NCBI GenBank assembly: GCA_026388535.1
Contig: JAPLJP010000106.1
Span: 1 to 54,266 of the forward strand
From: Deltaproteobacteria bacterium
GTDB taxonomy: Bacteria; Desulfobacterota; Syntrophia; Syntrophales; Smithellaceae
DNA: 54,266 bases
Direction of reading: 5' to 3'
Position numbers and translations under genes: made by a program. The notes under the pieces are model-generated. The model saw nothing but the letters and a program-made list of their open reading frames with translations, was not told the DNA's origin and did not search any database. This document shows, one piece after another, positions 11,570 to 54,072 of this stretch (within the stretch, counting starts at the first letter, position 1; each line of letters begins with the position of its first letter).

Positions 11570-11831
11570 TTATAGCCCCGCGTCGCTTCGCTCCTGGGAT
11601 AATTCCCAATAGCCTATGTGGCTATTGGATAGTTCGGCTTACTCTTCAAACTTCGCTACGCTCGTTTTCAGAGAGTCTCACTGCGACTGGCGCTTCAATC
11701 TTCACTTCGTTCGTTTTACCACGGCACTTCGCGCCTGGTATAATTCGTCCTGCAAGCTTCAGTCGTAGATGCCTTTCAGGGTATTCACTTTGTTTCTGAA
11801 GCTTGGGTCTCATTATCAGCGAGTCTCATTA
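11570..11831 (+). repeat. Mosaic stem-loop repeat, copy 1
   Basis: Non-coding block made of hairpin modules joined by conserved linkers. Modules: a CC-rich stem with CGCTTCGCTC in its loop (11575-11600), a 23-nt hairpin with arms CCAATAGCC (11606-11614) and GGCTATTGG (11620-11628), a TACCA/TGGTA hairpin (about 11717-11741), and a long-loop hairpin with arms CAAGCTTCAG (11753-11762) and CTGAAGCTTG (11796-11805). The linkers GGATAATTC and GAGTCTCATTA recur in the other four blocks. A 111-codon open frame across it is not a believable gene. Positions 11440-11569 hold nothing that I recognise. Confidence 0.85.
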
Positions 11832-11850
11832 AATTGGAGTTTCACAATGA

Positions 11851-11884
11851 AAATGGCAATTGCTTTTAAAAACAATTGCCATTT
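11851..11884. terminator. 12-bp perfect hairpin downstream of the TPR gene
   Basis: Arms 11851-11862 (AAATGGCAATTG) and 11873-11884 pair perfectly around a 10-nt A/T loop. It lies 40 bp past the TPR gene stop (minus strand), where it probably ends or protects that mRNA. T-runs after the stem are only 3-4 nt on either strand, so termination strength is uncertain. Confidence 0.55.
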
Positions 11885-11924
11885 AAGCAAACATTATTAA
11901 TAAAATATGCGACGCTTATCAGGA

Positions 11925-13346
11925 CTACATAATTTCTTTATATATCTTCCATTCGTTGCCTGTTTTTCTTAGCTCCAGCGTCTTTTTGCCAGTAGTCTTA
12001 ATCAATGAGGAGCTGTAATCTTGGATAAATATCGCTTTGGCATTATTTCCATTTACCGATATTTTTAAATTATCAATACCGATTTTTATATTCTTGCTGT
12101 TATTGCGAACATTGTTTTTAAATGATAACCATTCATCCAAATTCATTTTTCTTGATTTGAAATTTTCATCGTAGCAACTTCGGTAATTCTCCATATCGCC
12201 TGATTTCCAGCTGGTCAGCCATTTAGTAACCAAATTTCGAATATCTTCTTTAGTGGTTGATATTGTTTGTTTGCTTTCAGCTTGAGTTGCACTTGTGTCG
12301 GCAACAGCATCCGCAGCGGCGGCAACAGGAACGGCTGTCTCGGCGACTGGTGCTGTAGAGGTAATAGGTTCAGCAATAGCCGGCGCCGCTGCAACAGAAA
12401 CAGGCGCAGCTGTTGCCACGGGCATTGCTGTTTTTATATTTAGTTTTTCTTCAAAAAGCTGTACAATTTCCTTCCTAACATTTCCTGTATCAGAATCTTT
12501 TTTCACAGGAACATATTTAATAAAATCTTCATAAGCATCTTTATTGGGATTCTGGCTTATAGCAGTTGTGTAATCCGCCAAAGACTTTCCGTATTGTTCA
12601 AAGCTGTAATAAGCAAGCCCGCGGTTGTAGAAAGATGCGCTGTCGTTGGGATTTTTTTCTATAGCCTTATTATAGTCAGCAATAGCTTGCTGAAAATTGC
12701 CTTGAGTTTGATAGGCAACCCCACGGTTGGCGTAAAATCCGGCAACATTGGGATTTATTTCGATGGCCTTGTTGTAATCAGCGACGGCCTGTCGAAGATT
12801 TCCTTGGGTTTGATAAATGTTTCCTCGATTAACATAGACTCCGGCGAATTTAGGATTTATTTCGATGGCCTTGTTGAAATCGGCAACAGCCTGCTGAAGA
12901 TTGCCTTGAGTCTGATAAGCAATTCCGCGGTTGCCATAGGCTGCTGCGAATTTAGAATTGGCTTCAATAGCTTTGGTATAGTCAGCAACGGCTTGCTGAA
13001 GATTGCCTTGTTTTTCATACGCGTTTCCACGATTATAATAAGCTTCTGCATATTTGGAATCGATTTCAATGGCTTTGGTATAATCGGCGATAGCTTGATT
13101 TATTTTTCCCAGTTTTCCATAGGTGTTTCCACGGTTGTAATAGGCTTTCGCATGTTTGGAATTAACTCTAATGGCGTTGGTATAATCAGAGATGGCTTGC
13201 GTGAAGTTTTCTTGTTTTCTAAAAGAATTTCCGCGGTTGAAGTATTCTTCCGCTGTTCCCGCAGGTATATCTGGCACTGACTCGGCAAAAATTGATGGTG
13301 TAAATAATAAAAATATCAGCGATAAAGTAAATAATATTTTTTTCAT
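11925..13346 (-). CDS. Exported TPR protein with C-terminal NTF2-like domain
   Basis: A 473-residue protein with a Sec signal peptide (KKILFTLSLIFLLF, then SIFA), seven TPR repeats of 34 residues (about 30-265), an Ala/Pro/Val-rich low-complexity linker (about 300-360) and a C-terminal NTF2/SnoaL-like domain (about 365-473; KWLTSWKSGDMENYRSCY...LELRKTGNEWKIYKE). That last domain is closely similar to the one in the broken L,D-transpeptidase gene at 22 kb. TPRs suggest protein-protein contact in the periplasm. The ribosome site AAGGAAGG lies nine bases before the ATG. The TPR-coding DNA is itself an imperfect tandem repeat of 102 bp, prone to copy-number change. Confidence 0.88.
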   Translation of the reverse strand: MKKILFTLSLIFLLFTPSIFAESVPDIPAGTAEEYFNRGNSFRKQENFTQAISDYTNAIRVNSKHAKAYYNRGNTYGKLGKINQAIADYTKAIEIDSKYAEAYYNRGNAYEKQGNLQQAVADYTKAIEANSKFAAAYGNRGIAYQTQGNLQQAVADFNKAIEINPKFAGVYVNRGNIYQTQGNLRQAVADYNKAIEINPNVAGFYANRGVAYQTQGNFQQAIADYNKAIEKNPNDSASFYNRGLAYYSFEQYGKSLADYTTAISQNPNKDAYEDFIKYVPVKKDSDTGNVRKEIVQLFEEKLNIKTAMPVATAAPVSVAAAPAIAEPITSTAPVAETAVPVAAAADAVADTSATQAESKQTISTTKEDIRNLVTKWLTSWKSGDMENYRSCYDENFKSRKMNLDEWLSFKNNVRNNSKNIKIGIDNLKISVNGNNAKAIFIQDYSSSLIKTTGKKTLELRKTGNEWKIYKEIM

Positions 13347-13403
13347 AATAATTGCCTTCCTTTAAAATTAAAGTTTATTGATATTCTTCCGAAGTGGTGG
13401 AAA

Positions 13404-13432
13404 AATAAAACAAAAATTATTTGCATTGTCAA
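13404..13432 (-). promoter_or_regulatory. Candidate sigma-70 promoter of the TPR gene
   Basis: On the minus strand: a perfect TTGACA (13427-13432), a 17-bp spacer and TTTATT (13404-13409), about 60 nt before the ATG. The 13433-13673 stretch on the other side, before the SCP2-like gene, is AT-rich, and I could not find a convincing plus-strand promoter in it. Confidence 0.6.
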
Positions 13433-13673
13433 GTTAATTCTTGCCGGATATTAAATCCGTTATCTTGTAATAAATTTTATCCTTTCAGATTTATTGTACT
13501 CACTAATATATAAATACATTGGGACCTAATGTCGGAAGATTGCGTTTGTTGAGAGTTGTTTATATTATTATTTTAAAGAGACAAAATATCAGGTTTTTTT
13601 CAAATATTGGTCTTGTGTAAAGATTTTAAGTATGTTAGAAGCCCTGCATACCATACAATTTATAATCTTTAAC

Positions 13674-13680
13674 GGGGGGG
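13674..13680 (+). promoter_or_regulatory. Run of seven G as ribosome-binding site
   Basis: Seven consecutive G end 4 nt before the ATG at 13685, where a Shine-Dalgarno sequence is expected. Homopolymer G tracts change length easily, so the distance to the start could vary between cells. Confidence 0.5.
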
Positions 13681-13684
13681 CGTT

Positions 13685-14218
13685 ATGAAAGCAATGACTG
13701 ACTACAAAGAGATTGTTCCCAAAAAGAAATGGTTTGAAACGCTTGTAACACGTGTTTTCTTTTTATGTCTGGGAATGGGTATGCAAACCGCCTATAGGAT
13801 TGATCCTGACGCAAAGAAGGAAATTGATAGTTTACCAGAGACCTTTTCCTTTCGCCTGGCGGTGGTCGGCGGGCCGAGCATGATAATGCTGAAAAAAGCC
13901 GGGTCATTTCAATGTTTCGGCGAAAAGGAAGTCTTCTACTGTGATGTCGAGCTCTGGTTCAAGAATATTGAGTATGCGTATCTTACCATGACCGGACGGA
14001 TGAGTGTTCCCAATATAATATATCACAACAGACAGTTTATAAAGGGGAACTTGAAACATATGATATGTTTAAATAGGGTTATGACTATCACTCAGAGTCT
14101 TCTCTTTCCAAACTTCATTGCCCGTTTCTACGTCAAGGAAGTCCCTAAGATGACATTTAAGCGGCTTATTAATATGGGAATTACATATTTCAACGTTGGT
14201 TATGGAGCAATAAAATAA
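13685..14218 (+). CDS. SCP2-like lipid-binding protein, first of three
   Basis: A 177-residue protein. The region DVELWFKNIEYAYLTMTGRM and the following segment, with KGNLKHMICLNRVM and SLLFPNF, resemble the SCP2 sterol-carrier fold, which binds hydrophobic ligands such as fatty acyl chains. The assignment is weaker than for the protein at 19456. It is 33 bp upstream of an Fe-alcohol dehydrogenase and opens the 8-kb cluster, so a job in presenting a hydrophobic alcohol, aldehyde or acyl group to the dehydrogenases is inferred. The start has a G7 tract as its ribosome site. Confidence 0.6.
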   Translation: MKAMTDYKEIVPKKKWFETLVTRVFFLCLGMGMQTAYRIDPDAKKEIDSLPETFSFRLAVVGGPSMIMLKKAGSFQCFGEKEVFYCDVELWFKNIEYAYLTMTGRMSVPNIIYHNRQFIKGNLKHMICLNRVMTITQSLLFPNFIARFYVKEVPKMTFKRLINMGITYFNVGYGAIK

Positions 14219-14251
14219 TAATAATATATATTTCACAAAAGGAGAAATGAT

Positions 14252-15475
14252 ATGCTGTTTCATAAAAATGAAGTTATTCCTGAATATTATGAATTTTTTA
14301 ACTCAGTAAAGATAGTATCCGGCTATAAAGCCCTCGAAAATATTCCTTTCGAGCTAAGCCGCTTAGGAGCCAAGAGGCCGATCATTATTACCGACAAGGG
14401 TGTGGAACAGGCCGGTCTTATAAAAGTTGTGGTGGATAGTTTCGGTGGTACGGATACTGTGATCGGTGCCGTATTTGATGAGACGCCACAGGATTCCTCC
14501 GATAAGGTTGTCAATCAGATTGCATCCATATATCGGGCTAATAAGTGTGACTCCATAATTGCCGTGGGAGGAGGATCGGTAATTGATACGGCAAAGGGCG
14601 TCAATATTGTTATTACTGAAGAGACCGATGATCTCTTGAAGTTTATGGGTAATTTCCGGCTCAACAAGCCGATGAAGCCTTTTATTGTAATACCAACCAC
14701 GGCAGGTACTGGTTCTGAGGTAACCATGGCGGCGGTTATTGCAAATCCAGAAAAAAAATTAAAGATGCAGTTTACTTCTGATATGATGCTGCCGAAACTA
14801 GCAGTGTTGGATCCACGAATGACCGCGAGCATGCCACCAAAAATCACCGCTGCTACTGGTATGGACGCTCTTACACACGCAGTAGAAGCGTATATAGGAC
14901 CGCAGAAAAACCCGGTAAGTGATGCTTTTGCAGTTGCTGCCATTGAGCTTATCAGAAATAATCTCGTCAATGCGGTAAAGGATGGAAAGAACGTTGATGT
15001 GAGATTGGCCATGGCCAATGCTTCACTGCTGGCGGGAGTCGCTTTTTCGAACTCTCAAACAGCGATAGTTCATGGTCTTGCTCATGCGAACGGCGGTTTG
15101 TGCCATGTGCCTCATGGTATAGCAAATTCAATATTACTTCCTTTCGGACTGGAATTCTATATTGAGAAAGGCCCAAAAACAAAATCAAAGGTCAAAAATA
15201 ACATAGAAAATCTGCTGCTTTCCTTCGTTGGTCCTGAAGAGTTTGTGAAGGTGCCGGTAGAGGATAGGGCGAAAAGCACAGTCGCAGCAATCAGAAAAAT
15301 TACCAATGAACTGAATAAACTCTGCGGCCTTCCTTTGAAACTCAGAGATGCCGGCGTTCCTGAAAACAAGTTAGGAGAAATAGCGCAGTTGACCATAGAC
15401 GATGGTACCGCCGCATTCTTCCCTGTTGAAGTTAATTATGAGGAAGCACTGGGCGTTTTAAAAGCCGCTTTTTAA
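14252..15475 (+). CDS. Iron-containing alcohol dehydrogenase 1
   Basis: Group III NAD(P)-dependent alcohol dehydrogenase that interconverts a primary alcohol and an aldehyde. At 407 residues it is slightly longer than the 380-390 residue norm. The nucleotide motif is GGGSVIDTAK. Metal ligands by comparison with FucO are D205, H209, H274 and H288, with the conserved H278. A clear AAAAGGAG precedes the ATG. It lies between an SCP2-like gene and an AOR gene, so its aldehyde product probably feeds the AOR. Chain length of the substrate cannot be read; the SCP2 neighbours hint at a hydrophobic one. Confidence 0.92.
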   Translation: MLFHKNEVIPEYYEFFNSVKIVSGYKALENIPFELSRLGAKRPIIITDKGVEQAGLIKVVVDSFGGTDTVIGAVFDETPQDSSDKVVNQIASIYRANKCDSIIAVGGGSVIDTAKGVNIVITEETDDLLKFMGNFRLNKPMKPFIVIPTTAGTGSEVTMAAVIANPEKKLKMQFTSDMMLPKLAVLDPRMTASMPPKITAATGMDALTHAVEAYIGPQKNPVSDAFAVAAIELIRNNLVNAVKDGKNVDVRLAMANASLLAGVAFSNSQTAIVHGLAHANGGLCHVPHGIANSILLPFGLEFYIEKGPKTKSKVKNNIENLLLSFVGPEEFVKVPVEDRAKSTVAAIRKITNELNKLCGLPLKLRDAGVPENKLGEIAQLTIDDGTAAFFPVEVNYEEALGVLKAAF

Positions 15476-15512
15476 ATGGGCCTTAATCTCTTTATGAAAT
15501 AGGGGTAATATT

Positions 15513-17346
15513 ATGAGCGATACTAAAGAAAAAGAAATTAATGTAAAGGAAAAGAACATCCCTGAAATAGTAGGTACAAGCAATAAGGTCTTGGAAGTTG
15601 ATCTGACAAATAAAACATATACTATCTATCAAGTCAAAGATGAAGAGAGAAGGATGTATCTAGGCGGCAAGGGGTTGGGGCTAAAACTAATTTATGACCG
15701 GATGCCGGCAAAGATAGATCCTCTCGGCAAGGAAAACATCATTGCTTTCATGCCCGGCGTATTAATGGGAACCGGCGCACCTTGCTCGGGACGTTTTTCG
15801 GCGGTAACCAAGTCACCGCTGACCGGAATTATGGATCATGCCTCATGCGGCGGACCATTCGGCATGAGCCTGAAAACTGCTGGATGGGATGGAATATTGA
15901 TAAAGGGAAAATCTGAAACTCCTATTTATCTCGTTGTTACTTCTTCAGGCGTGGAATTTAAAGACGCCGCTGCTTTATGGGGAAAGGATGCTTTTGAAAC
16001 GCAGGAACTGCTCGGTAAGAATAAGAATGCCGGTGCGGCGGTTATCGGTCCTGCCGGGGAAAACAAGGTGCTCTTCGCCAATATCGTCTCTGAGAAACGC
16101 TTTTTGGGACGAGGCGGCATGGGTGCAGTCATGGGTTCCAAAAACCTAAAGGCTGTTTACGCTATTGGCGGAGCGTACAAAATAGTAGCTAAAGATCAGA
16201 AAATATTTGACAAGATTAAAAAAGTAGCTACAAAACGCATCAACAACAGCCCGAGCACTTCACATGCGCTCAGAAAATTCGGAACAAACAATCTGGTTAA
16301 CTTTACCAACTTGAGTGGTATTTTACCGGTGCGAAATTATACCGAAGGATCATCGGATAATGCCTATAAAATTACCGGTGAATATTATAGCGAAAATTTC
16401 AATACCAAGCATCATACCTGTAAACCCTGCACAATTCTTTGCGGCAAGTCCGGAACTTTTAACGGCAAGGAATTATCAGTACCGGAATATGAAACCGTCG
16501 GGCTGATGGGTTCCAATCTGGAAATCTTCGATCCGGTCGTAATTGCCGAATGGAATGACCTGTGCGGCAGGCTCGGCATGGATACGATCAGCATGGGCGG
16601 CACCATGGCCTGGGTAATGGAGGCCGGAGAAAAAGGTTTGATCAAGACGGATTTGAAATTCGGTTCACCGGAAGGGGTGGCCGCTGCCATAGAAGATGTA
16701 GCTTATGGCAGGGGATTTGGTCAGGAAATGGGTCGGGGTTCGCGTGCCTTATCTCAAAAATACGGTGGCGCTGATTTTGCCATTCAGGTTAAGGGTATGG
16801 AATTGCCCGCCTACGATCCGCGCGGCTCCTTCGGCATGGGGCTCAATTATGCCGTAGCCAACAGGGGCGCCTGCCATCTTGGATTTTTATTGTGCAATGA
16901 ACTCTTTGCATACGTGCACATTCACCACATTTGCCTATATTGTAGAAAATCCGGTTGTAAAATACAACGGACTTATATACCTCAGAGTTGTAATGAATTA
17001 TCTCTATCCGGTAGTATTTATGTTGGGCAATATAACCCTTGATATCAGTATCTACCATAAATTCTGGTCGTCTATAACAGGAATGAAAATGTCGCGTTCA
17101 GATTTTTTAAAGGCGGGCGAACGCATCCATATCCTTGAGCGCTACATGAACACACGTGAAGGCATATCAGTTAAAGACGACACCTTGCCGGGACGTTTGC
17201 TCAAGGAAGGCCGCAAGAACGATCCCAAGGGAAGAGTAGTGCCTTTGGAAGAGATGCGAGAGAAGTATTACCGCATAAGATCATACGATGAGAATGGCAA
17301 ACCAACCGCAAGCATTATGAAGAAGCTCAAAATTGTAGCCATGTAG
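15513..17346 (+). pseudogene. Aldehyde:ferredoxin oxidoreductase 1, frameshifted and rearranged
   Basis: Tungstopterin enzyme family that oxidises aldehydes to acids with ferredoxin. Frame 1 (15513-17042) is normal to about residue 457: the N-terminal AOR domain and three cluster cysteines C303, C306 and C310 are present. After RGACHLG it departs from the family. Frame 2 (16879-17346) resumes with a TCTFTTFA segment holding the fourth cluster Cys and ends with a normal AOR C-terminus (KAGERIHILERYMNTREG). Compared with the intact AOR at 17495, about 50 residues are missing at the junction and about 34 extra residues lie between the fourth Cys and the SITG segment. Two overlapping frames, a net deletion and an insertion argue for a non-functional gene; an assembly error is the alternative. 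Confidence 0.8.
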
Positions 17347-20025: not shown

Positions 20026-20038
20026 CCAAGCATTAACA

Positions 20039-42508: not shown

Positions 42509-42511
42509 AAT

Positions 42512-45373: not shown

Positions 45374-45574
45374 TTGGCAGAAGGAAAAGTAAAATGGTTC
45401 AACGAGAAGAAGGGGTTTGGCTTTATTGAAAATGATGAAGGCGGAGATGTTTTTGTTCATTATAGCGCCATTAGCGGGACAGGATTCAAGACTCTTTACG
45501 AGGGCCAGAAAATTCGTTTCGATATTGAACAGGGAAACAAGGGTCCCAGCGCAACAAATGTTCAGCCACTATAA
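45374..45574 (+). CDS. cspA: Cold-shock protein
   Basis: A 66-residue single cold-shock domain that binds single-stranded RNA and DNA. RNP1 KGFGFIE and RNP2 DVFVHYS are intact, with WFNEKKG before them. Start is TTG at 45374 with a strong AAAGGAGGG eight bases away. A hairpin with a T-tract in front of it may regulate it. Confidence 0.96.
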
Positions 45575-45606
45575 TTTTTTCATTTATTAAAGTTAACTCG
45601 AACTAT

Positions 45607-45848
45607 TGAACTATCCCCATTCGCTTCGCTCAGGGGATAATTCCCAATCCCGATAATCGGGATTGGATAGTTCCACTTGCGTTTTAAGCTTAACTTCGAT
45701 TGCTTTCAACGAGTGTCACTACGATTTACGCTTTAATGAGCCTTGATTTTCCGAAACATAGTGATCGGAAAATCTTAGAGCGAATTATCCCGCCACCTTT
45801 AGGATGGAGGGACAAACTTCACTTTGCTCGTTTTCAGCTTGTCTCATT
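45607..45848 (+). repeat. Mosaic stem-loop repeat, copy 2
   Basis: Modules in order: TATCCCC/GGGGATA hairpin (45612-45618 with 45633-45639); the 23-nt hairpin CCAATCCCGA/TCGGGATTGG (45644-45653 with 45657-45666); and a 110-bp core (45728-45837) that starts with a GATTTTCCGA/TCGGAAAATC hairpin (45745-45754 with 45765-45774). The end of the block runs into the MATE gene and supplies its last codons and stop. Confidence 0.85.
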
Positions 45849-47180
45849 AAAACGCCGCAGTTCTTTTTTTGCCCAGAAGATGACAGCGAAAAATGCAATT
45901 AGATTGGCTAAAGGAAGCGCCAGCCATACGCCTGTAAGTCCGAAATAAAGTGGTAAAATAATCAAAAGAGGAATAAAGGCAATACTGTCCCGGAGGAAAA
46001 GTAAGAACATGGCCAGAGTACCTTTGCCCAAGCCCATAAACATATTTATGAAAATTATAATAGGAGCGATTAATACAAGTGCAGAGACATGAATACGTAA
46101 AGCCGGTACTGCTATTAATATCAAAGCAGGGTCTTTGGAAAAAAGTCCGACTATCTGCGGAGCGAATATCTCCAAAATTATAGAAGCGATAACGGCAAAG
46201 AAAAGTGATACCTTAAGGGTGACGAAAACAGACTCTCTTAATCTTTGAAAAAGTCTGGCGCCTGAACTGAATCCGACAATTGGCATTAAACCGAAGCCGA
46301 AACCGAAGAGTACCATGGTTACCAGACCGGTAACGCGAAAGCATATTCCCAGCGCTGCTATGGCCAGAGAACCAAAACCAGCAAGAACATGATTGTAAAT
46401 AACTAAAACCAAGCTGACAATCAAATTTATGGCTATTGAAGGGAGACCTGTTGAATAGATTGAATTAATTATGGAAATATTAGGGATAATATATTCCAAT
46501 TTAAGTTCATATTTTGATGATTTTAATTGCATAAAATATACGGAGAATATACAGGCCATGAATTGGGCGAAAACAGCGGCAAGCGCCGCTCCTTTAATAC
46601 CCAAGCGAGGAAAATGGCCGATTCCAAAAATCAAAAAGGGATCTAGAAGGGCACTGGAGATGGAGGCGATTAAAACAACGTACATGGACAAAAGAGGCCT
46701 CCCTTCGGCGCGCAGTAAATTGTTGGACATCATGGAAAAAAAGAGAAACGGCGAACTGAAAACTATGATATAAAGATAATCGTGGCAAAGAGGCATTATT
46801 TCATTAAAAGCGCCGAAAGCGAGAAGAATCGCATCTCCAAACAATAAAACAGAAATGATCATGATTAAACCAAAGAAAAAGGAGAGGGAAAATATTTGGC
46901 CGGCAGTTTGTTTCGCCCGGATAATTTTTCCGGCGCCGAACATCCGTGCGGAAAAAGAACCGGCGCCAATACCTGTTCCGACACCTATTGCGGCAAAGAT
47001 CATTTGAATGGGAAAACAAACGGTAAGAGCGGCTAAGGCTTGGGAACTTAAACGTGCCAGCCAGAAAGTATCAATAAAATTATAGATAGACATGGCTGTC
47101 ATCGCTATAATTGATGGCCAGCTCATTTTTATAATAAGAGGGAAGATTGATTCTTTCTCTAAATCCAGCCGTTTAATCAT
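45834..47180 (-). CDS. MATE-family efflux transporter
   Basis: A 448-residue inner-membrane antiporter with 12 hydrophobic segments in two halves. The MATE pattern is visible in the first helices (PSIIAMTAMSIYNFIDTFWLARL) and the mirrored second half (GLPSIAINLIVSLVLVIYN). It probably exports cationic drugs or metabolites with Na+ or H+ exchange. The last residues (RRFNETS) and the stop come from the neighbouring mosaic repeat, so the natural C-terminus may have been replaced. No clear ribosome site lies before the ATG. Confidence 0.92.
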   Translation of the reverse strand: MIKRLDLEKESIFPLIIKMSWPSIIAMTAMSIYNFIDTFWLARLSSQALAALTVCFPIQMIFAAIGVGTGIGAGSFSARMFGAGKIIRAKQTAGQIFSLSFFFGLIMIISVLLFGDAILLAFGAFNEIMPLCHDYLYIIVFSSPFLFFSMMSNNLLRAEGRPLLSMYVVLIASISSALLDPFLIFGIGHFPRLGIKGAALAAVFAQFMACIFSVYFMQLKSSKYELKLEYIIPNISIINSIYSTGLPSIAINLIVSLVLVIYNHVLAGFGSLAIAALGICFRVTGLVTMVLFGFGFGLMPIVGFSSGARLFQRLRESVFVTLKVSLFFAVIASIILEIFAPQIVGLFSKDPALILIAVPALRIHVSALVLIAPIIIFINMFMGLGKGTLAMFLLFLRDSIAFIPLLIILPLYFGLTGVWLALPLANLIAFFAVIFWAKKELRRFNETS

Positions 47181-47248
47181 TTTTTATAATATGGTGTGAA
47201 AGTGATTGTGTTGCTTACATACAAAGATAGATAATTTCAAGGTAAAAT

Positions 47249-48157
47249 ATGACGAAAAATCTGATTGTTATTCTGGGGCCAACTGCATCAGGTAAAACTC
47301 ATCTGGCGGCGATGCTTGCCAATGATTTGCAAGGTGAAATAATTTCCGCTGATTCCCGTCAGGTTTATAAAAAAATGGATATCGGCACAGGCAAAGATCT
47401 GAATCAGTATATTGTTAACGGCCGTCTGGTTCCGTATCATTTGATAGATATTACGGAGCCGGAGAATGAGTTTAACTTATTTGAATTTCAAAACAGATTT
47501 TATAAAATATTCAGCGAACTCACGGAAAAGAAAATAATGCCTGTTCTTGTCGGAGGGACCGGCCTTTATCTGGAATCAGTTCTTACAGGCTATGATATGC
47601 CTGTCGCTCCGGTAGATGAAGAATTCAGAAAAAATATCAGCCGGAAATCAAAAGATGAACTGCAAGAAATGCTTCTGTCTTTGAAACCGAATATGCATAA
47701 CAGTACCGATCTTGAAGACACTGGGAGATTAATCCGGGCAATAGAAATTGAACGGGCACGAAATATAAAAGATCGAGGTAACCCCACCAAGCCGAATATT
47801 GATGCTGTGGTTTTCGGAATCAGATGGGAAAGATCAACTCTGCGTCAGCGTATTACAGAAAGATTAAAAGAAAGACTGGAAAATGGCATGGCGGAGGAAG
47901 TCATAAATCTGCATACCGCAGGATTGAGTTGGACGAAACTGGAGAGCTTCGGTCTGGAGTATCGTTTTATTTCACAATATCTGCAAAAGATCATTACATT
48001 TGAAGAAATGACCAAAAAGTTAAACACCGCTATTCACCAATATGCCAAAAGACAGGAAACGTGGTTTCGGCGGATGGAAAAAAAAGGCATACTGATTCAC
48101 TGGCTCCAAAGTAACGAATATTCTTTGTTGAAAGAAAGCGTAATGAAATTTCTGTGA
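47249..48157 (+). CDS. miaA: tRNA dimethylallyltransferase
   Basis: Adds a dimethylallyl group to A37 of tRNAs that read UNN codons. A 302-residue protein with P-loop GPTASGKT (10-17), SADSRQVYKKMDIGTGK, VGGTGLYLESVL and AIHQYAKRQETWFRR, all diagnostic of MiaA. The end of the gene touches the next start (TGATG). It is adjacent to a glycosyltransferase-like gene with which it is probably co-transcribed. Confidence 0.96.
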   Translation: MTKNLIVILGPTASGKTHLAAMLANDLQGEIISADSRQVYKKMDIGTGKDLNQYIVNGRLVPYHLIDITEPENEFNLFEFQNRFYKIFSELTEKKIMPVLVGGTGLYLESVLTGYDMPVAPVDEEFRKNISRKSKDELQEMLLSLKPNMHNSTDLEDTGRLIRAIEIERARNIKDRGNPTKPNIDAVVFGIRWERSTLRQRITERLKERLENGMAEEVINLHTAGLSWTKLESFGLEYRFISQYLQKIITFEEMTKKLNTAIHQYAKRQETWFRRMEKKGILIHWLQSNEYSLLKESVMKFL

Positions 48158-49512
48158 TGAAAAGAAAATCTTTAATTGATATATATCTGCGCAATTACTC
48201 AGTGGGTGAAAAGTGGGAGTTAATTGCGAATAATACTGATGATATTTCTCAGGTTGTCGTGATACCGGCTTACGCGGAAAGAGAAACGCTTCTTTCCACT
48301 CTGGCTTCTTTAGCGCGTAATTCATCTTCGTCTTTGGAATATTCTTTTATATCGTGTGTTATTAATAATAAGGATAATTCATCTTCTGCGGCGTTAGAAA
48401 ACAACCTCCAGACAATCGAATATTTGGACGCCTTGGTGAAAAAGAAATCTTTAAGAAAATTCAGTACTGATAAGAAAATATATCCTGTTTTGCTTAATTT
48501 GTCCGATGCGAAATTGAAGCTGGGCTACATTAACGCCTCGTCAAAAGGATATGAAATGCCGCGGAATACCGGCGGCGTGGGAATGGCGCGAAAAATCGGC
48601 ATGGATATGGCCTTGCGCCTGCTGAGAAAAAATTCCTCTTTTCCCAATTTGATTATAAGTCTCGATGCCGATACTTTGGTCAGGGATAATTATTTGTCCA
48701 CGATAAAAAATTATTTTACGCCGGAAGTCAAAACTGCAATTGTGTCTTATGAACATCAGATGCCGGAGGCTTTTGAAGAACAGGCCGCCATTGTTTGTTA
48801 TGAAATGTTTTTGCGCTACTGGGTTCTGGGACTAAAGTATGCGAAATCTCCCTGGGCTTTCCATTCCATAGGCTCAACGATTATCGCATCAACTGAAGCT
48901 TACCTCGGAGTCAGGGGAATGAATAAGCGCAAAGCGGGGGAAGATTTTTATTTCTTAAGCAAACTCGCTAAAATGGGGGAAATTAATTATATTAAAGAAA
49001 CATGCGTTTATCCTTCAGCTCGCTCTTCCACTCGTGTTCCTTTTGGAACGGGAAAAAGAATACAAAGATTTCTTGCAGGCGTTTGCAAAGAAGAATATCG
49101 TTTATATGATCCGCAAATATTCGTGATATTAGGCGATTGGTTGCAACTTATGAATGGCCTGTTTATCACCGGCGAGGATGAAGTTTTAACAAAAGCGGAG
49201 AGAATCCATCCCAGTTTAAAGGATTTCCTGAAAAATAGTGACTTTTCTGCGATCTGGTCAAATATACGCCGCAATGCGAAAGACGAAAAAACTCTCGGCC
49301 ACCAGTTTAATGACTGGTTTGACGGGTTTAAAACTTTAAAATTGATTAATTATTTCACCAGAGAAGTTTATCCTCAAATTAATATGTTTGAAGCCCTGGC
49401 GCGAATTATTTCTATGTCGGGAATGTCTGGATTAAAATTAAATTCAGAAGCAGACATTCCCCAATTAGAAGAGCAGATAAAAACTCTGCAATACTTACGC
49501 ATGATAACATGA
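48157..49512 (+). CDS. Family 2-like glycosyltransferase
   Basis: A 451-residue GT-A-like protein. The nucleotide-sugar region begins VVVIPAYAERETLLSTLASL, a DXD-like motif is in LIISLDADTLVRDNY, and GEDFYFLSKLAKMG is the usual acceptor-side loop. No membrane helices are evident. I chose ATG 48157, which overlaps the miaA stop, over GTG 48154. The product is unknown. Confidence 0.82.
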   Translation: MKRKSLIDIYLRNYSVGEKWELIANNTDDISQVVVIPAYAERETLLSTLASLARNSSSSLEYSFISCVINNKDNSSSAALENNLQTIEYLDALVKKKSLRKFSTDKKIYPVLLNLSDAKLKLGYINASSKGYEMPRNTGGVGMARKIGMDMALRLLRKNSSFPNLIISLDADTLVRDNYLSTIKNYFTPEVKTAIVSYEHQMPEAFEEQAAIVCYEMFLRYWVLGLKYAKSPWAFHSIGSTIIASTEAYLGVRGMNKRKAGEDFYFLSKLAKMGEINYIKETCVYPSARSSTRVPFGTGKRIQRFLAGVCKEEYRLYDPQIFVILGDWLQLMNGLFITGEDEVLTKAERIHPSLKDFLKNSDFSAIWSNIRRNAKDEKTLGHQFNDWFDGFKTLKLINYFTREVYPQINMFEALARIISMSGMSGLKLNSEADIPQLEEQIKTLQYLRMIT

Positions 49513-49557
49513 TGATATATATCAGAGTTAATCCCTCGTCGCCGCCGTTATATCTTT

Positions 49558-49650
49558 ATGAGCTCATTATCCCACAGCGCTTCGCGCCTGGGATAATTCG
49601 ACTAACGCCTCAAACGTTGCTGCGCTAGTTTTCGACGAGTCTCATTATAA
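49558..49650 (+). repeat. Mosaic stem-loop repeat, copy 3 (short)
   Basis: A TATCCCA/TGGGATA hairpin (49568-49574 with 49589-49595), linker AATTCGACTA, then an arm-loop-arm unit of 10-12-10 (49606-49615, 49616-49627, 49628-49637; 7 of 10 pairs), and closing linker AGTCTCATTA (49638-49647). It is the smallest block and shows the basic unit best in the forward direction. Confidence 0.85.
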
Positions 49651-49655
49651 TTATC

Positions 49656-49684
49656 TTGACGTATATGTTTATTTTACATATAAA
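49656..49684 (+). promoter_or_regulatory. Sigma-70 promoter of the PpiC lipoprotein gene
   Basis: TTGACG (49656-49661), a 17-bp spacer and TATAAA (49679-49684), each five of six, 43 nt before the ATG. It begins 9 bp after the last conserved base of mosaic repeat copy 3. Confidence 0.72.
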
Positions 49685-49726
49685 CTTCAAAATAAAAAAC
49701 TGCAAAACATTTTCTGGAGGAAATTC

Positions 49727-50776
49727 ATGAAAAATAAAATCAATATAATCTGGAAAGCTATTTTAGTTTTATTTGTCTTTTTTCTGGTGTCAGGTTGCGG
49801 CGATAAAGAGAAAACAAAAGAAGTATCTCCCGCTCCGGCGGTTTCTGAATCTCATGCTTCCCCCAACGCGCCGTTTGTTGCAAGTGAGCAATCTAAGCCA
49901 TCTGATATAGTTGTCAGTGTTGATGGGAAAGTTCTAAAAAAATCTGAATTGGAACAAGACATCAATAAGATAATAAAAAAGTTTAAGGATAAAATACCGG
50001 CCGATAAACAAAAAGAAGCGAGAATAAATATTAAGAATCAGTTGGTAAATACATTTGTAATGAAGACTCTTTTAGCAAATGAAATTGAGAAAAGAAAAAT
50101 TGGAGCGAACGATCAGGAAATAAAAGCAACAAAAGACAGGATACAAGCAAGTCTTCCGCCAAACAAAAAATTGGATGAATTCTTCAAAGAAAATGGCATA
50201 TCTCAAGAAGAAATTGCGTTTGCAGTAAAGGTGGAAAAATTTAAAAATCAGGAAATCGGTGATAAGGCAAAACCTACGCAAAAGGAAATAAACAAATTTT
50301 ACAAAGATAATCAAGAAAAACTGTTTGTTGAGCCGGAAAGTGTTCATGCCCGTCATATTCTTGTGGCCACGAAAAAAGAAGATAATGACAAAGTCAAAGC
50401 GCAGAAAAAGGAAAAAATAGAAAATTTGCGCAAGCAATTATTGAATGGTGGTGACTTTGCAGAACTAGCCCGTAAAAATTCCGATTGTCCGAGTAAAGAA
50501 GTTGGTGGTGATTTGAATTTCATAAAAAAGGGGCAAATGGTGAAAACTTTAGAAGATGCCGCCTTTTCACAGAAGAATAATGTTATTGGTCCAGTAATTA
50601 CAACGGAATATGGTTATCACATTATTCAGGTGCTAGATCATAAACCCGCTAAGAAATTATCTTTAGACAAGGTTAAGGGCAGTATTTCCGCTCATCTGGA
50701 AAAGCAGAAAACAATGCAAATGTTTAATGATATTTTGAAAAATTTACAACAAAAAGCGAAAATAATAGTTTATTAA
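49727..50776 (+). CDS. Peptidyl-prolyl isomerase lipoprotein (parvulin, PpiC/SurA-like)
   Basis: A 349-residue exported lipoprotein with lipobox LVSGC (Cys24), then a Pro/Ser-rich linker, a SurA-N-like helical domain (about 58-190) and a PpiC parvulin domain (about 200-310; ARHILVATKK, GGDFAELARKNSDCPSKEVGGDL, TEYGYHIIQVLD). It assists folding of envelope proteins in the periplasm. A GGAGG ribosome site precedes the ATG. Confidence 0.92.
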   Translation: MKNKINIIWKAILVLFVFFLVSGCGDKEKTKEVSPAPAVSESHASPNAPFVASEQSKPSDIVVSVDGKVLKKSELEQDINKIIKKFKDKIPADKQKEARINIKNQLVNTFVMKTLLANEIEKRKIGANDQEIKATKDRIQASLPPNKKLDEFFKENGISQEEIAFAVKVEKFKNQEIGDKAKPTQKEINKFYKDNQEKLFVEPESVHARHILVATKKEDNDKVKAQKKEKIENLRKQLLNGGDFAELARKNSDCPSKEVGGDLNFIKKGQMVKTLEDAAFSQKNNVIGPVITTEYGYHIIQVLDHKPAKKLSLDKVKGSISAHLEKQKTMQMFNDILKNLQQKAKIIVY

Positions 50777-50808
50777 ATTAATTTTTATCGGAGCAAATTT
50801 TAATCTGT

Positions 50809-51627
50809 TTATTTAAAACTGTGTTCACTATCGGGGAAATCGCCATGTTTCACTTCCGCGATATAGGTTTTAACCGCTTTTTTAATTTCCAAATTTAGAT
50901 GGGCGTATTTCTTTACGTGTTTGGGAGTAAATCGATCGTATATTCCCAGCATATCATTAATTACCAGAACCTGGCCGTCGCAATTAACTCCGGCACCTAT
51001 GCCTATAGTCGGAATATCAATGGAGTTGGTTATTTCAGAAGCAAGACCTTCCGGAATGCATTCCAGAACGAGAGAGAATGCGCCCGCTTCTTCCAGAATT
51101 TTAGCGTCTTCAATAATTTTACGGGCGGAATCTTCTTTTTTCCCCTGTACTTTGTAACCACCAATTTGATGGATAGATTGAGGCGTTAAGCCCAAATGGG
51201 CCATAACGGGAATTCCTGCAGAAGTGATCTTTTGCACGGTCTCCGCATATTCTCTTCCGCCCTCTAATTTAACAGCTTGGGCGTTTGCTTCCTGTAAAAA
51301 CCTGCCGGCATTAGCCAATGCAGTTTGTCCAGATATCTGATAGGATAAAAAAGGCATGTCCGCAACAATTAAAGCATTCTGAGCGGCACGAGAAACCGCT
51401 TTGGTGTGATGCAACATATCTTCCATGGTGACAGGCAGTGTAGTGTCATAACCTAAAACAACCATTCCCAATGAATCGCCGACCAAAATAATATCAATAT
51501 TGCATTCGTCAAGTATGGAAGAAATCGCGTAATCATAAGCTGTAAGCATAGTGATCTTTTCTCCCGCCGCCTTCATTTTTTTTATGTCTAAAGTGGTTTT
51601 ACGGCTACTTTTATTTTGATTGCTCAT
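50809..51627 (-). CDS. panB: 3-methyl-2-oxobutanoate hydroxymethyltransferase
   Basis: First committed step of pantothenate synthesis: makes ketopantoate from 2-oxoisovalerate and methylene-tetrahydrofolate. A 272-residue protein with [55 protein letters not shown] and [15 protein letters not shown], all family hallmarks. The ribosome site AAGGAG precedes the ATG. It overlaps the end of the DUF2520 gene by 17 bp, so the two form one operon. Confidence 0.96.
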
Positions 51628-52513
51628 GATTTATCGCTCCTTTTAAAATAGCATTCATTGTTTTTACCTGCCGGGCATTAAGCGTTCCCTTTTGTTGCGC
51701 TACTTTAACCGTTATTAATCCCAGAGAAGAATACAAAGAGGAGTATTGCGGCATATTTTTATTAATTGCTTTGATATGTTTCTTGATCGTGCCGAAATCA
51801 CCGCGGGCAATGGGGCCTGTAAGGGAAGGAATCGAACCGGAATTCTCGATATTTTTAAGGCTGCCGTAAACTAAAGGCAGATAAGCTGCTTTTGCGTCTT
51901 TTTCATTCAGACCGATAGATTTATAAATGGATTCTACAGTGTTCATTAAAGAAACAAGATAATTGGAAGCAAGGCAAGCGGCAGCGTGATAAAGCGGCTT
52001 TTGGTCAGAAGAAATTAAAAGAGGAATCCCTTTTAAATCGCGAACAATATTTCTTGCCGTCGCCTGAGCTTTTTTATCCGCTGTAATTGCAAAATAACTT
52101 CCGGGGATGTTTTTTATAGCTTGGTCAATTGAAGAAAAGCTTTGCAATGGATGAACGCTGGCAACCGCCGCGCCTGCTTTCTTTGCCGCATCAAGCAGAT
52201 CCAGGCCGCCGGCCCCACTCATATGGAAAACTAATTTCCCTTTTATTGCCGGACAAAGGGCAATATCCTTACAAGCAGAAGAAATAACGTCATCGGGGGT
52301 GGTAATTAAAATACAATCAGCTTTTTGCACCGCTTCCCTAGATTTGAGAAAAGTTTCACCTTTCATATAAAGGAGAGCTCTTTTCCTTGCTGCGGGAGAT
52401 TTATCGGCTATGGCAATGATTTTATAGCCGGCTTTTCTTAATAAAAAACCGATGGCTGTTCCAACCATTCCGGCGCCGATAATTGCAAAATTATTTAAAT
52501 GCCTTTTATTCAT
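51611..52513 (-). CDS. Rossmann-fold DUF2520 oxidoreductase
   Basis: A protein of about 300 residues with NAD(P)-binding [16 protein letters not shown], a middle [10 protein letters not shown] that is typical of DUF2520 proteins, and a helical C-terminal domain like ketopantoate reductase. It lies directly before panB with a 17-bp overlap. No classical ketopantoate reductase (panE) is in the window, so it may do that step; this is inference from fold and position. I chose ATG 52513; the upstream TTG 52519 has no advantage. Confidence 0.85.
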
Positions 52514-52534
52514 ATTCAAATGCGACTTACTTCA

Positions 52535-52901
52535 ATATCCCTGCCTTCGGCGGGATAATTCAACTAACGCTTTAATAAGCCCTGATTTTTACCCTAAAGG
52601 GCACTGCGCCGAAACGTAGTGCTCGGAAAATCTTAGAGCGAATTATCCCACCACCTTCAGGTGATAGGGACAAACTTCACTTCTCTCGTTTTAATTGTAT
52701 CCCACAATCCTCATTCGCTTTGCTCGTTTTCAGCGAGTTTCATTATCCCACGGTGCTGAGCGCTTGGGATTGTTCGACTTACGCTTCAAACTTCACTTCT
52801 CTCGTTTCAATTGTATTCCACAATCCCCATTCGCTTTGCTCAGGGGATATTTCGACCAGCAAGCTTCAGTACACTTCGTTTCTGACGCTTGGGCCTCAAT
52901 A
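52535..52901 (+). repeat. Mosaic stem-loop repeat, copy 4 (longest)
   Basis: In order: an ATCCC-GCC-TTC-GGC-GGGAT hairpin (52537-52556), the core module with a 19-nt insertion (52567-52692), CACAATCC-linked hairpins, a TATCCCA/TGGGAT hairpin (about 52745-52770), an AATCCCC/GGGGATA hairpin, and a final 10-12-10 unit with arms CAAGCTTCAG (52860-52869) and CTGACGCTTG (52882-52891). Bases 52609-52684 occur again, inverted and identical, at 53972-54047. It fills the gap after the DUF2520 gene. Confidence 0.85.
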
Positions 52902-52929
52902 AAAAAGGCCTTCCGCAAAAGGAAGACCT
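52901..52929 (-). terminator. Minus-strand intrinsic terminator without a minus-strand gene
   Basis: Read on the minus strand, AGGTCTTCC-TTTTGC-GGAAGGCCT (52929 to 52906, nine pairs with one G-T) is followed by a T-tract. No minus-strand coding gene lies to its right before the plus-strand HAD gene, so it may end a small RNA coded between about 52930 and 53080. Confidence 0.7.
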
Positions 52930-53080
52930 CGACAGTTAAATAAAAAAACGAGCACCGTCTCAGTCGACAGAATGGATCCAAGCGGTTGGCTAATATCTAC
53001 CACTAGCCGGAAACTTAGTCAAATATTATTTAAAGAATCAAACTTGTGTTTGTCGCGGCACTTCGTTATATAGATATAAG
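52930..53080 (-). ncRNA. Possible minus-strand small RNA
   Basis: About 100-150 nt that are less AT-rich than usual spacers, contain possible stems (GGCTA/TAGCC around 53000) and end in the terminator at 52901-52929 on the minus strand. No known RNA family was recognised and no promoter was convincing. This is a prediction only. Confidence 0.3.
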
Positions 53081-53085
53081 GTGAA

Positions 53086-53733
53086 ATGATGAAAAAAATA
53101 GATTTAATGATATTTGATTTCGATGGCACTCTTGTTTCCACAGGCGCTGATTTGGTAATGTCAATAAATTACATGTTGAATTCACTGGCGCTGAAGGAAA
53201 AACCGGCAAAACAAATTCTTTGCTTTGTCGGCGACGGTATAAGCAAACTGGTTGAAAAGACGTTAGGGGAAGATAATATCAAATATCATGAAGAAGCGAT
53301 GAGAATTTTTACTGATTATTATGGCAAACATCTTTTGGATAATACCGAACTCTGTCCTCAAGCAGAAGAAGTCTTGAAATGTTTTGAAAATAAAAGAAAA
53401 GTTATTTTGACTAACAAGCGCTATAATTTTACATTGGCTATAGCGCAAGGGGTAGGCATAGCAAAATACTTTGTGGAAATAATCGGTTCCGATTCCACGC
53501 CGTTCAAGAAACCGGATAGCCGCGTGATAGATTATTTGTTAAATAAGTACAAAGTTGTTAAAGAAAACATTATTATCATAGGCGACGGCGTCAATGATAT
53601 CGCTGTAGCAAAAAATTCCGGCATATTGAGTTGCGCGTATTTAAATGGAATGGGCAACAGGAATGATTTGTTGAATCTTGAAGCCGATTATTATTGTGAA
53701 GACCTTTTGGAAATCAATTCTTTGTTTTGTTAA
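53086..53733 (+). CDS. HAD-family phosphatase (phosphoglycolate phosphatase-like)
   Basis: A 215-residue haloacid dehalogenase hydrolase. Motif I DFDGTLVSTG (nucleophile D11 or D12 region, FDFDGTL), motif II ILTNKR, motif III Lys in PFKKPD, and motif IV GDGVNDIAVAKN. The helical cap lies between motifs I and II, as in Gph/PpaX proteins. The ribosome site AAGGTGA precedes the double ATG. It is enclosed by a 76-bp perfect inverted repeat belonging to the mosaic repeats. Confidence 0.92.
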   Translation: MMKKIDLMIFDFDGTLVSTGADLVMSINYMLNSLALKEKPAKQILCFVGDGISKLVEKTLGEDNIKYHEEAMRIFTDYYGKHLLDNTELCPQAEEVLKCFENKRKVILTNKRYNFTLAIAQGVGIAKYFVEIIGSDSTPFKKPDSRVIDYLLNKYKVVKENIIIIGDGVNDIAVAKNSGILSCAYLNGMGNRNDLLNLEADYYCEDLLEINSLFC

Positions 53734-54072
53734 TGAGACTAAAATTTCAGGAACGGAGTGAACTGAAATTTAAAAGTCGAATTAGTGAGTCCCAAGTTTT
53801 AATGAGACTCAAATTTCACAAGCGCAGTGTAGTGAAATTTGTAAGTCGAATTATCCCACATGCACTTTCATGTGGGACTATATAGCAAATGAAACTATCT
53901 CTTTAGCAAAGCACATAGGGATCTCCCATAAGCTAAGCGAATGGGGATTGAGGGATATAATTGAGAACGAAAGAAGTGAAGTTTGTCCCTATCACCTGAA
54001 GGTGGTGGGATAATTCGCTCTAAGATTTTCCGAGCACTACGTTTCGGAAAATCAAGGCTCATTAAAGTGTTA
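53731..54072 (-). repeat. Mosaic stem-loop repeat, copy 5 (inverted)
   Basis: Two tandem units of 69-nt spacing begin with TAATGAGACT (53731 and 53800) and end with AAGTCGAATTA (53774 and 53843). Stems are AAATTTCAG/CTGAAATTT (53742-53750 with 53763-53771) and CAAATTTCAC/GTGAAATTTG (53810-53819 with 53832-53841), each with a 12-nt loop. Then a CCCACATG/CATGTGGG hairpin (53855-53876) and an inverted core module (53963-54072). It lies between the HAD gene stop and the tilS start and uses the opposite orientation to copies 2-4. Confidence 0.87.

Follow-up and report, generated by a model that had tools for sequence, protein, structure and literature searches.

A family of dispersed 54-nt intergenic hairpins whose fold is kept while its sequence changes in Smithella and distant bacteria

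The five repeat blocks of the window (the whole stretch of DNA analysed here, 54,266 nucleotides) belong to a single family of intergenic elements found in Smithella/Syntrophaceae, whose unit is a 54-nt hairpin. As the fold is kept while the letters change, something in the cells probably recognizes the shape of the strand and not its sequence. Our preferred reading, which we hold with about as much confidence as doubt, is that of a dispersed, non-autonomous, REP/BIME-like mobile hairpin recognized as a folded single strand, DNA being likelier than RNA. What sequence comparison reveals is a high copy number, pairing kept through change, presence or absence at corresponding sites, insertion at gene boundaries, identical modules in unrelated flanks, a GNA-rich triloop, and occurrence in contigs labeled with several phyla.

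RESULTS

The repeat unit is a 54-nt hairpin of fixed geometry

The unit is read on one strand as TAATGA-GACT, a 10-nt arm, a 12-nt tip, a second 10-nt arm, and AGTC-GAATTA, and the tip holds a mini-stem with a triloop. A preliminary description of this DNA had noted the 10-nt arm, 12-nt loop, 10-nt arm geometry, which proved exact, with the repeats in register across modules. The same description joined the hairpins by invariant linkers, a view that we had to abandon: GGATAATTCGACTTACGC does not occur exactly in the window (the best match, at 49591-49608, has 1 mismatch), and the linkers are not separate from the hairpins. They are part of the stem, the GACT of the GGATAATTCGACTTACGC linker pairing and covarying with the AGTC of the other linker. 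The hairpins had been correctly seen but were quoted from the opposite strand, the structured strand being the reverse complement of the one given.

At the foot, TAATGA/GAATTA, two GA steps face each other and probably form tandem G.A pairs. Because these GA letters are part of every selection rule, the conservation of the foot is no independent test, and the foot G.A count from the larger module set is circular. In our main alignment (A1), the triloop is GNA in 32/50 and ANA in 12/50 of the tips closed by C..G, and the outer closing pair is A-T in 35/65 and G-C in 22/65. The GNA share is lower in this recount than in the larger set, whose tip figures (GNA 226/285; tip G.T 65/696) were set aside as evidence because many of its loci had been retrieved by means of a pattern in which tip letters are prescribed. 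We rejected GAGCGAAGCGA, a longer invariant tip, as the core of the element, with only 10 exact copies in 389 kb.

In most cases a further hairpin (A), generally ATCCC..GGGAT, comes after the 54-nt one (B); a second stem of at least 6 was found after 138/343 modules, compared with 3 in shuffled flanks. In Smithella, the hairpins are nested in composites with fixed ends, about 5'-GTGAAACTCC to CATACCCGTGATT-3'. The complete composites found measure 94-345 nt, which is too short for a transposase gene. The block described at 11570-11831 is real and forms part of one such composite (Table 1).

At E<0.001, the covariance model recognizes 11 modules in the window, in agreement with the five related blocks first reported; 9 of these 11 were already in A1, the alignment behind the model, and so match it by construction.

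Table 1. Elements of the hairpin family in the window
Feature	Position	Strand	Basis or detail
Complete composite element	about 11505-11845	-	5' end GTGAAACTCC (11836-11845), internal modules, 3' end CATTGCCGTGATT (11505-11517)
A-type hairpin after B module	11570-11606	-	family D5
54-nt B module	11630-11683	-	covariance model, 68.3 bits
54-nt type module, longer tip	11741-11815	-	covariance model, 44.1 bits
A-type hairpin CCCCTGAGCGAAGCGAATGGGG	45613-45637	-	families D7, I10
54-nt B module, CACT/AGTG linker class	45668-45721	-	covariance model, 60.9 bits
54-nt module, TGATTTTCCG/CGGAAAATCT arm class	45734-45787	+	covariance model, 61.6 bits
A-type hairpin ATTATCCCAG-tip-TGTGGGATAAT, adjoins module	49564-49600	-	sequence
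54-nt B module between 452-aa ORF and SurA/PpiC-like gene	49594-49647	-	covariance model
Module, insertion in tip	52573-52645	+	covariance model, 28.2 bits
Rearranged module, good match in 5' half only	52692-52745	-	covariance model, 28.1 bits
54-nt module, start directly at T-tract of terminator-like stem GGTCTTCC..GGAAGGCCTTTTT	52848-52901	-	covariance model
54-nt module, its TAA is the stop codon of HAD hydrolase gene 53086-53733	53731-53784	+	covariance model
54-nt module, CAAATTTCAC/GTGAAATTTG arms	53800-53853	+	71.7 bits; DNA fold z -4.2
54-nt module, TGATTTTCCG arm class	54011-54064	-	covariance model, 62.0 bits

The module beside the SurA/PpiC-like gene has no counterpart in 10 of the 12 relatives in which the gap was read, and folding programs favor another fold for it (DNA z -0.76, RNA z -1.40). 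The module at the HAD stop codon differs by a C-G to T-A pair change from its orthologous copy in genome G014.

The family is present in high copy number

Further copies in the genome, the first check proposed for the family, are plentiful. The linker occurs at 166 places in the host genome (at most 3 mismatches; 0 in a reversed-pattern control), and the covariance model gives at least 151 matches there; such per-genome model counts are lower bounds and not unbiased copy numbers. With ten linker letters fixed, pairing required, and all arm and tip letters free, a descriptor retrieved 71 modules from 389,462 bases of the host genome; the reversed sequence yielded 1, and three Markov shuffles yielded 0-2. 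This sample consists of the window and 20 stretches picked for holding copies, so that no unbiased density can be taken from it. Most of its modules (62/71) lie outside ORF calls, with 15% of the bases being non-coding. The elements are thus intergenic mosaics of palindromes and linkers, as BIMEs are. Searching Rfam 15 with seven other loci in addition to the window (at the gathering score, or at E<=0.1 for 45500-54266) returned a single tRNA and no match to the element, and our literature search revealed no earlier description of the hairpin family.

Arms and linkers covary

Alignment A1 contains 66 sense windows out of 129, with a linker score of at least 15. Antisense and chance windows were left out, as was one off-register window (L083:3478, score 15), and rows were chosen by linker letters alone, pairing being no criterion. 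Over these 66 copies, 18 of the 20 pairs have changed on both sides and 88% of the cells pair, compared with 26-37% when the partners are slid, confirming the earlier statement that the stems differ yet stay paired. Cells changed on both sides number 285, versus 88.7 after shuffling, and the covariation score of 0.591 exceeds both the shuffled value of 0.188 (reached in 0/500) and the slid values of 0.05-0.13. Covariation above chance, which had been named as a check, is therefore found in A1 and also in the 43 model-derived Omnitrophota copies described below.

Orthologous copies show how the letters change. We dropped identical modules, repeated sequence pairs, and pairs with flanks above 98.5-99% identity. 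Among the closest 22 orthologous pairs, one-sided changes (18) are as frequent as double changes (19), a point against our preferred reading. Of 67 orthologous-site pairs, 23 differ at 22-34 of the 54 positions; modules of unlike arm families can stand at the same nucleotide in different species; and 168/286 double changes are not transition pairs. These last three observations would suit a process with neither function nor dedicated enzyme, in which template switching or gene conversion rebuilds palindromes and ectopic recombination through foot and tip swaps the arms. We consider this improbable: empty sites indicate true insertion, template copying alone would not preserve the tip, nor a register of exactly 54 nt, in different phyla, and a hot spot hit repeatedly by insertions accounts equally well for the presence of unlike modules at one site. 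The preliminary alternative of selection on structure or a palindrome-rebuilding DNA process is supported as a pair of mechanisms.

Copies occur in distant phyla

Genomes labeled Omnitrophota contain matches in at least 71 of 193 cases. In alignment A4 (43 ungapped copies out of 61 listed, from 69 matches), 99.0% of cells are paired and double changes number 181 versus 49, for copies found by a model that rewards pairing. One Omnitrophota MAG has 12-26 nt repeats of tRNA 5' ends beside its copies. Copies were also found in contigs labeled with several phyla, one of them on a phage contig.

Many elements lie at gene ends

Sites are filled or empty between species, and a target duplication is not clear. 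One identical 54-mer occurs at 12 places in three species; its nine copies in G014 have upstream flanks at most 39% alike. At resolved composite sites, insertion is 3' of TTTAT or TTTCT with no duplication, where a MITE of a DDE transposon would have terminal inverted repeats and a target-site duplication; for the module at the HAD stop codon, a TA duplication is an alternative reading. Ends paired over up to 345 nt in 36 stretches yielded no autonomous copy that combines the same ends with a Y1 transposase, ends paired over 1-4 kb being taken as chance.

To count gene ends, we excluded 90 modules that were not first in an array, 18 that follow a GTGAAACTC relic, and 34 that follow other element pieces, as well as modules with less than 400 nt upstream and repeats of one flank. 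An ORF of at least 100 codons runs into 61 of the 236 clean array-first modules, and 42 of these 61 ORFs stop at the first codon of the module, where about a third would be expected with a random frame. A perfect terminator stem with a T-tract lies directly upstream of 11/236 array-first modules, compared with 1/1323 control positions. Over all modules, the presence of six Ts in the last eight upstream bases is a weak signal (27/378 versus 13). The sense strand runs with the neighboring genes in 75/107 tandem contexts (three sets, partly overlapping), and divergent and convergent gaps hold copies too, roughly in proportion to gap length. A replication-strand bias was not seen, sense-strand GC skew being positive in 30/56 clusters, with contig-level skew as a weak proxy.

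Mismatches suggest a folded single strand, DNA likelier than RNA

In the arms of A1 without columns 15/16, 483/520 cells are Watson-Crick, with 4 G.T and 4 A.C. Arm G.T is thus no commoner than A.C, indicating that wobble pairs are not tolerated in the arms. Mismatches are asymmetric: A.G and G.A together number 12 versus 4 for C.T and T.C in A1, and 54 versus 11 over 348 distinct modules. In the tip, G.T is common (13/130, with A.C at 2; A1). Energy folding shows no preference for DNA, and RNA fold z-scores are strong in 3/4 sense copies tested. PMC4686876 describes DNA mini-hairpins with GNA or GNNA loops as extraordinarily stable and nuclease-resistant, and names at least two G-C pairs. The tip studied here shares the GNA triloop with d(GC-GNA-GC). 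Those mini-hairpins are known as short DNA fragments, whereas here the motif caps a natural repeat, ANA also occurs, and A-T outnumbers G-C as the outer closing pair. Taken together, the GNA-rich tips, the rarity of arm G.T, and the mismatch asymmetry suggest a folded single strand, with DNA likelier than RNA.

The main alternative is a role as RNA, in which the sense strand is transcribed at gene ends and the two hairpins together serve, as RNA, in protein binding, processing, or mRNA protection, with selection on the RNA keeping the pairing. The co-directional orientation, the copies at stop codons and after terminators, the strong RNA z-scores, and the tolerance of G.T in the tip agree with this role, as does the module being more conserved than its flank in 20/22 orthologous pairs (1-11 differences; a choice biased by low difference). 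We nevertheless regard it as rather unlikely, since divergent and convergent gaps hold copies roughly by their length, 10/60 Omnitrophota copies are antisense to the adjoining start codon, arm G.T equals A.C, Rfam holds no matching family, and little transcription would be expected of copies that lie immediately behind an intrinsic terminator.

Candidate enzymes and known systems

No mobilizing enzyme was found when Y1 transposases and reverse transcriptases were looked for in 17 genomes of the genus. A Y1 transposase (PF01797) is present in 13/17 and absent from 4, in MAGs 79-100% complete in which such a gene may be missed; three of the 4 genomes without a Y1 match hold at least 99-140 model matches. 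Modules occur in 4/30 Y1 loci of the genus (7 matches in 85,757 bases) and in 2/3 of those in the host genome. By inspection, two of the three host Y1 genes sit among other repeats, the GGGGACAG type in L032 and the GTAGGGCGCG palindrome in L033, and the IS200-type gene of G010 has other ends. A RAYT/Y1 enzyme as general mobilizer is thus unsupported over the genus, although host loci carry modules. Group IIC-like retro-insertion after terminators is likewise unsupported, reverse transcriptase (RVT_1) being found in 8/17 genomes and not in the host.

REP/BIME elements (GTAG- or CGTC-tagged palindromes), together with REPINs, are among the closest known systems. According to PMC3733652, REP/BIME elements are short intergenic palindromes in high copy number, arranged as mosaics or doublets near gene ends and often supplying a stop codon, as reported for GTAG REPs. 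The elements described here resemble them in these respects and differ in the absence of a tag, the 54-nt unit, the GA-facing-GA foot, the GNA-rich tip, the nearly free covariation of arms and linkers, one architecture across distant phyla, and no genus-wide association with Y1 genes. GTAG or CGTC lies directly at the foot in 1/373 modules; within a 12-nt window over the 5' foot, GTAG was found in 19/373 and CGTC in 1. The initial impression that this is not a REP therefore holds with regard to tagged REPs: the family lacks the GTAG/CGTC tag, is not clearly enriched near Y1/RAYT genes, and so does not qualify as a classical REP. Ordinary repeats derived from REP/RAYT or IS200/IS605, with the tag lost and the transposase lost in some genomes, would also be mosaic, palindromic, and stop-supplying, and would fit the lack of target duplication at clear composite sites and the widespread Y1 protein, with modules in most host Y1 loci. 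The near-absence of the tag, the few module-bearing Y1 loci in the genus, and the other repeats or ends that accompany the Y1 genes lead us to consider this origin quite improbable.

TnpA-REP, a relative of the IS200/IS605-type transposons, recognizes the shape of a hairpin together with single-stranded features, and does so on one strand only; integron integrases are named as a parallel (PMC8266576). Our elements are like IS200/IS605-type single-stranded DNA transposons and their non-autonomous derivatives in their hairpins, the lack of a clear target duplication, and insertion 3' of a T-rich motif at resolved composite sites, and unlike them in composite size, in the lack of a matching autonomous copy among the 36 stretches, and in that no replication-strand bias was seen. 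Integron attC sites are recognized through the folding of a single strand, the fold being conserved and the sequence variable. The present elements would share this property, except that they are dispersed and lie outside cassette arrays. Neisserial intergenic mosaic elements with dRS3 and pneumococcal BOX elements combine variable units with conserved palindromic joints; here too, variable units are joined by palindromic joints, with the difference that pairing and covariation extend to the joints and that the 54-nt geometry of the units is fixed. In PMC3733652, dRS3 is classed as CGTC-1.

DISCUSSION

For the mobile hairpin that we favor, we propose that an enzyme of the host or of the element would bind to the folded strand at its conserved tip and at its TAATGA/GAATTA foot and would ignore the arm sequence as long as the arms pair. 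It may insert the element near gene ends, much as TnpA-REP acts on REPs and IntI on attC. Copies with unpaired arms would not be re-mobilized, so that the fold would persist as the sequence drifts, and insertions at stop codons would survive because the TAA or TAG-TGA of the repeat itself replaces the stop.

A broader view, which we put forward only tentatively, is that of a class of mobile DNA that spans phyla and is defined not by its sequence but by the fold of a single strand: a 54-nt hairpin with a tandem G.A foot and a GNA-type tip, which a putative new single-stranded DNA recombinase might insert at stop codons, terminators, and tRNA ends, with exchange among Syntrophales, Omnitrophota, Bacteroidota, and phages.

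Bacteria commonly carry dispersed palindromic repeats, but conservation of the fold itself can rarely be demonstrated. Here, nearly all pairs of the hairpin, including those of the joints, have been replaced with pairing kept in two distant phyla, which makes the question of folded DNA, folded RNA, or junk directly testable and points to a putative structure-reading enzyme in syntrophs and Omnitrophota.

Anatomy of the module and the composite element

The module is a 54-nt hairpin. Its 5' side consists of TAAT-GA-GACT and a 10-nt arm, a tip of 12 nt follows, and its 3' side consists of another 10-nt arm, 2 nt, and AGTC-GA-ATTA. The linkers, which the preliminary description took to be invariant, prove not to be so: together they make up the foot of the stem, where they pair on both sides of two GA steps that face each other, and they covary (GACT/AGTC, CACT/AGTG, AACT/AGTT, GGCT/AGCC, and GACC/GGTC). 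Arm sequences fall into many families, with 32 distinct arm pairs among the 43 modules of the Omnitrophota set, and the tip is a two-pair mini-stem capped by a triloop. The modules of A1, our alignment, were selected solely on linker letters. C..G closes 50 of its 65 tips, and the triloop of these is GNA in 32 and ANA in 12.

TCC or ATCC stands immediately 3' of the module in 294 of 354 cases, and a perfect stem of at least 6 pairs lies within the following 47 nt in 138 of 343, compared with 3 in shuffled flanks. A second hairpin thus usually follows the module. The larger composites of Smithella have fixed ends, GTGAAACTCC at 5' and about CATACCCGTGATT at 3', and complete composites of ~140 nt are present in the source genome.

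Features located in the window and in other stretches
Feature	Stretch	Coordinates	Remarks
Composite element	window	11505-11845	complete
Tandem repeats	window	12544-13257	six 102-nt repeats within TPR-repeat protein gene
Module	window	49594-49647	folding programs favour another fold
Looks like a small RNA	window	about 52902-53085 (-)	between DUF2520/Rossmann gene and HAD gene; ~180 nt ending in terminator
Y1 gene, RAYT type	L033 (G000, own genome, contig C127)	900-2100	amid copies of GTAGGGCGCG palindrome
Module on viral contig	L258	1471-1524	between two ORFs; contig has major head protein, tail-fibre-like gene, head closure gene

The minus-strand stretch that looks like an unannotated small RNA is kept in all 14 genomes in which the gap was read, our own included, and has no Rfam match at E ≤ 0.1.

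The two sides of the stem covary

The reading of the blocks as hairpins that stay paired while their sequence changes was borne out. A1 (66 modules, 65 distinct) contains 285 double-change cells compared with 88.7 ± 6.8 in shuffles, with double changes at 18 of 20 pairs. Pairing reaches 88.4% of cells (shuffles, 66.4%; partners slid, 26-37%), and the covariation score is 0.591 (shuffles, 0.188; slid, 0.045-0.125). Further pair types did not exceed chance in A1 (48 versus 46.0 in shuffles). Of the 20 pairs, unguided RNAalifold recovered 15. In the 43 Omnitrophota sequences, which come from another phylum, double changes affect 16 of 20 pairs and 99.0% of cells are paired, a figure that is partly selected because they were gathered with R1, our covariance model, which rewards pairing.

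Across 67 pairs of orthologous sites holding unlike modules, we counted 286 two-sided changes that keep Watson-Crick pairing versus 94 one-sided changes, 22 of them to G.T. In the closest 22 pairs the counts are 19 and 18, indicating that in-place evolution passes through mismatches. A clear case in the window is the module starting at 53731, where one arm pair is C-G and is T-A at the same site in the relative G014.

Folded DNA or folded RNA

The A1 arms (columns 15/16 apart) are Watson-Crick in 483 of 520 cells and show no sign of wobble tolerance, with four G.T and four A.C. Their mismatches are asymmetric, A.G plus G.A outnumbering C.T plus T.C by 12 to 4 (54 to 11 in a larger set), which points to the sense strand, reading TAATGA..GAATTA, as the structured one; this is the opposite of the strand originally quoted. 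G.T is tolerated in the tip (13 of 130 in A1; A.C, 2). PMC4686876 reports exceptional stability and nuclease resistance for DNA mini-hairpins that have a GNA loop and two or more G-C pairs; in the module, the outer closing pair is more often A-T than G-C. Energy folding gives no decision between DNA and RNA. Of 107 tandem contexts, counted over three partly overlapping sets whose arrays are not independent, 75 have the sense module pointing the same way as the genes next to it. This is compatible with RNA as well, but would also follow from insertion downstream of stop codons and terminators. On indirect evidence, DNA is favoured as the structured molecule.

Copy number and distribution

Further copies do exist: the linker occurs at 166 places in the source genome (2.86 Mb, 193 contigs, completeness 96%) at ≤3 mismatches, and the reversed pattern at none. 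At ≤2 mismatches it was found in 31 of 99 searched genomes, our own included, the control giving single matches in 3 of 99. A rule of ten linker letters plus pairing returned 71 modules in a 389-kb sample of the source genome, 1 in the reversed sample, and 0-2 in three Markov shuffles. In 271 loci (1.8 Mb), many picked for holding copies and some partially overlapping, 408 windows had at least 3 linker pairs and at least 7 arm pairs (reversed control, 0).

R1 matched all 17 genomes of the genus, whose members include Smithella and Syntrophaceae records, and 58 of 155 of the order; in a phylum sample it matched 4 of 247, all of the same family and one being the source genome. Exact-pattern matches, among the matches listed, include MAGs of Ignavibacteriae, Bacteroidota, Omnitrophota, and Geobacteraceae, where each group name comes from one record title and single contigs may be binning errors. 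One Bacteroidota copy adjoins a ribosomal L13 gene and is probably native, since the best PDB match of this L13 is 7jil, which we take to be a Flavobacterium structure. For the phylum to which the Omnitrophota MAG belongs, R1 matched 71 of 193 genomes, and for the class that holds one of the Ignavibacteriae MAGs, 8 of 149; both counts include the MAG itself, and the other seven of the latter are weak.

Mobility and insertion sites

In panB synteny across 15 relatives, the same gaps occur both filled with elements and empty. Compared with the empty G007, G014 and G010 carry the insertion directly in front of the HAD gene's native TAG stop. The composite of L252, compared with the empty L224, sits between TTTAT and TAGCGG without duplication, and a by-eye comparison of the kpr-had gap gave the same picture (G008 and G014 composites versus G007 and G012). 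An identical 54-mer occurs at 12 places (nine in G014, two in G010, one in G002), and the nine G014 upstream flanks are at most 39% alike.

In the Omnitrophota MAG G396, modules lie beside tRNA genes at four loci (L291, L295, L296, and L300). In these units the 3' end runs into a repeat, 12-26 nt long, of the tRNA 5' end. Such repeats look like a target duplication, which the inspected Smithella sites do not show in this form.

Of the 236 clean array-first modules, 61 are entered by an ORF of at least 100 codons. The first codon of the module serves as the stop in 42 of the 61; about one-third would be expected under a random frame, because the module holds stops in its frames. For another 71 an ORF ends ≤250 nt upstream, and the remaining 104 lack an ORF end of this kind. 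A perfect terminator stem with a T-tract lies directly upstream of 11 of the 236 (1 of 1323 control positions). Purifying selection against insertion within genes must account for part of this gene-end pattern. GTAG REPs, too, are reported to supply stop codons (PMC3733652).

One site can carry, at the same nucleotide, unlike modules in different species, which may mean that the site is a hot spot or that modules are replaced in place. Two Ignavibacteriae MAGs of different species (L186 and L226) share a module at an orthologous site; the tip of the second hairpin has changed.

Candidate mobilising enzymes

No mobilising enzyme was found for the family when Y1 transposases (PF01797) and reverse transcriptases were looked for in the 17 genus genomes. 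PF01797 is present in 13 and absent from G003, G008, G011, and G012, which hold at least 12, 139, 99, and 140 R1 matches, respectively. Reverse transcriptases occur in eight genomes and not in our own.

Modules were found at 4 of 30 Y1 loci of the genus, two of these four being among the three Y1 loci of the source genome. By inspection, those two Y1 genes sit amid other repeats, GGGGACAG-like and GTAG-headed. PMC3733652 describes repeats of these kinds with TIRYT and RAYT genes. A link of the family to a Y1 enzyme is therefore possible but unproven.

The palindrome around the L033 Y1 gene looks like that gene's own GTAG-type REP. The Y1 genes of L031 and L032 share the same neighbour gene, and L032 is flanked by GGGGACAG-like repeats.

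Classification of the family

A keyword search of open-licence papers found no earlier description of the family. It works like REP/BIME and IS200/IS605-type hairpin elements; it lacks the GTAG/CGTC tag of REPs and is therefore not filed there. We regard it as a variant form of dispersed palindromic repeat, whose architecture is defined by the fold and common to several phyla.
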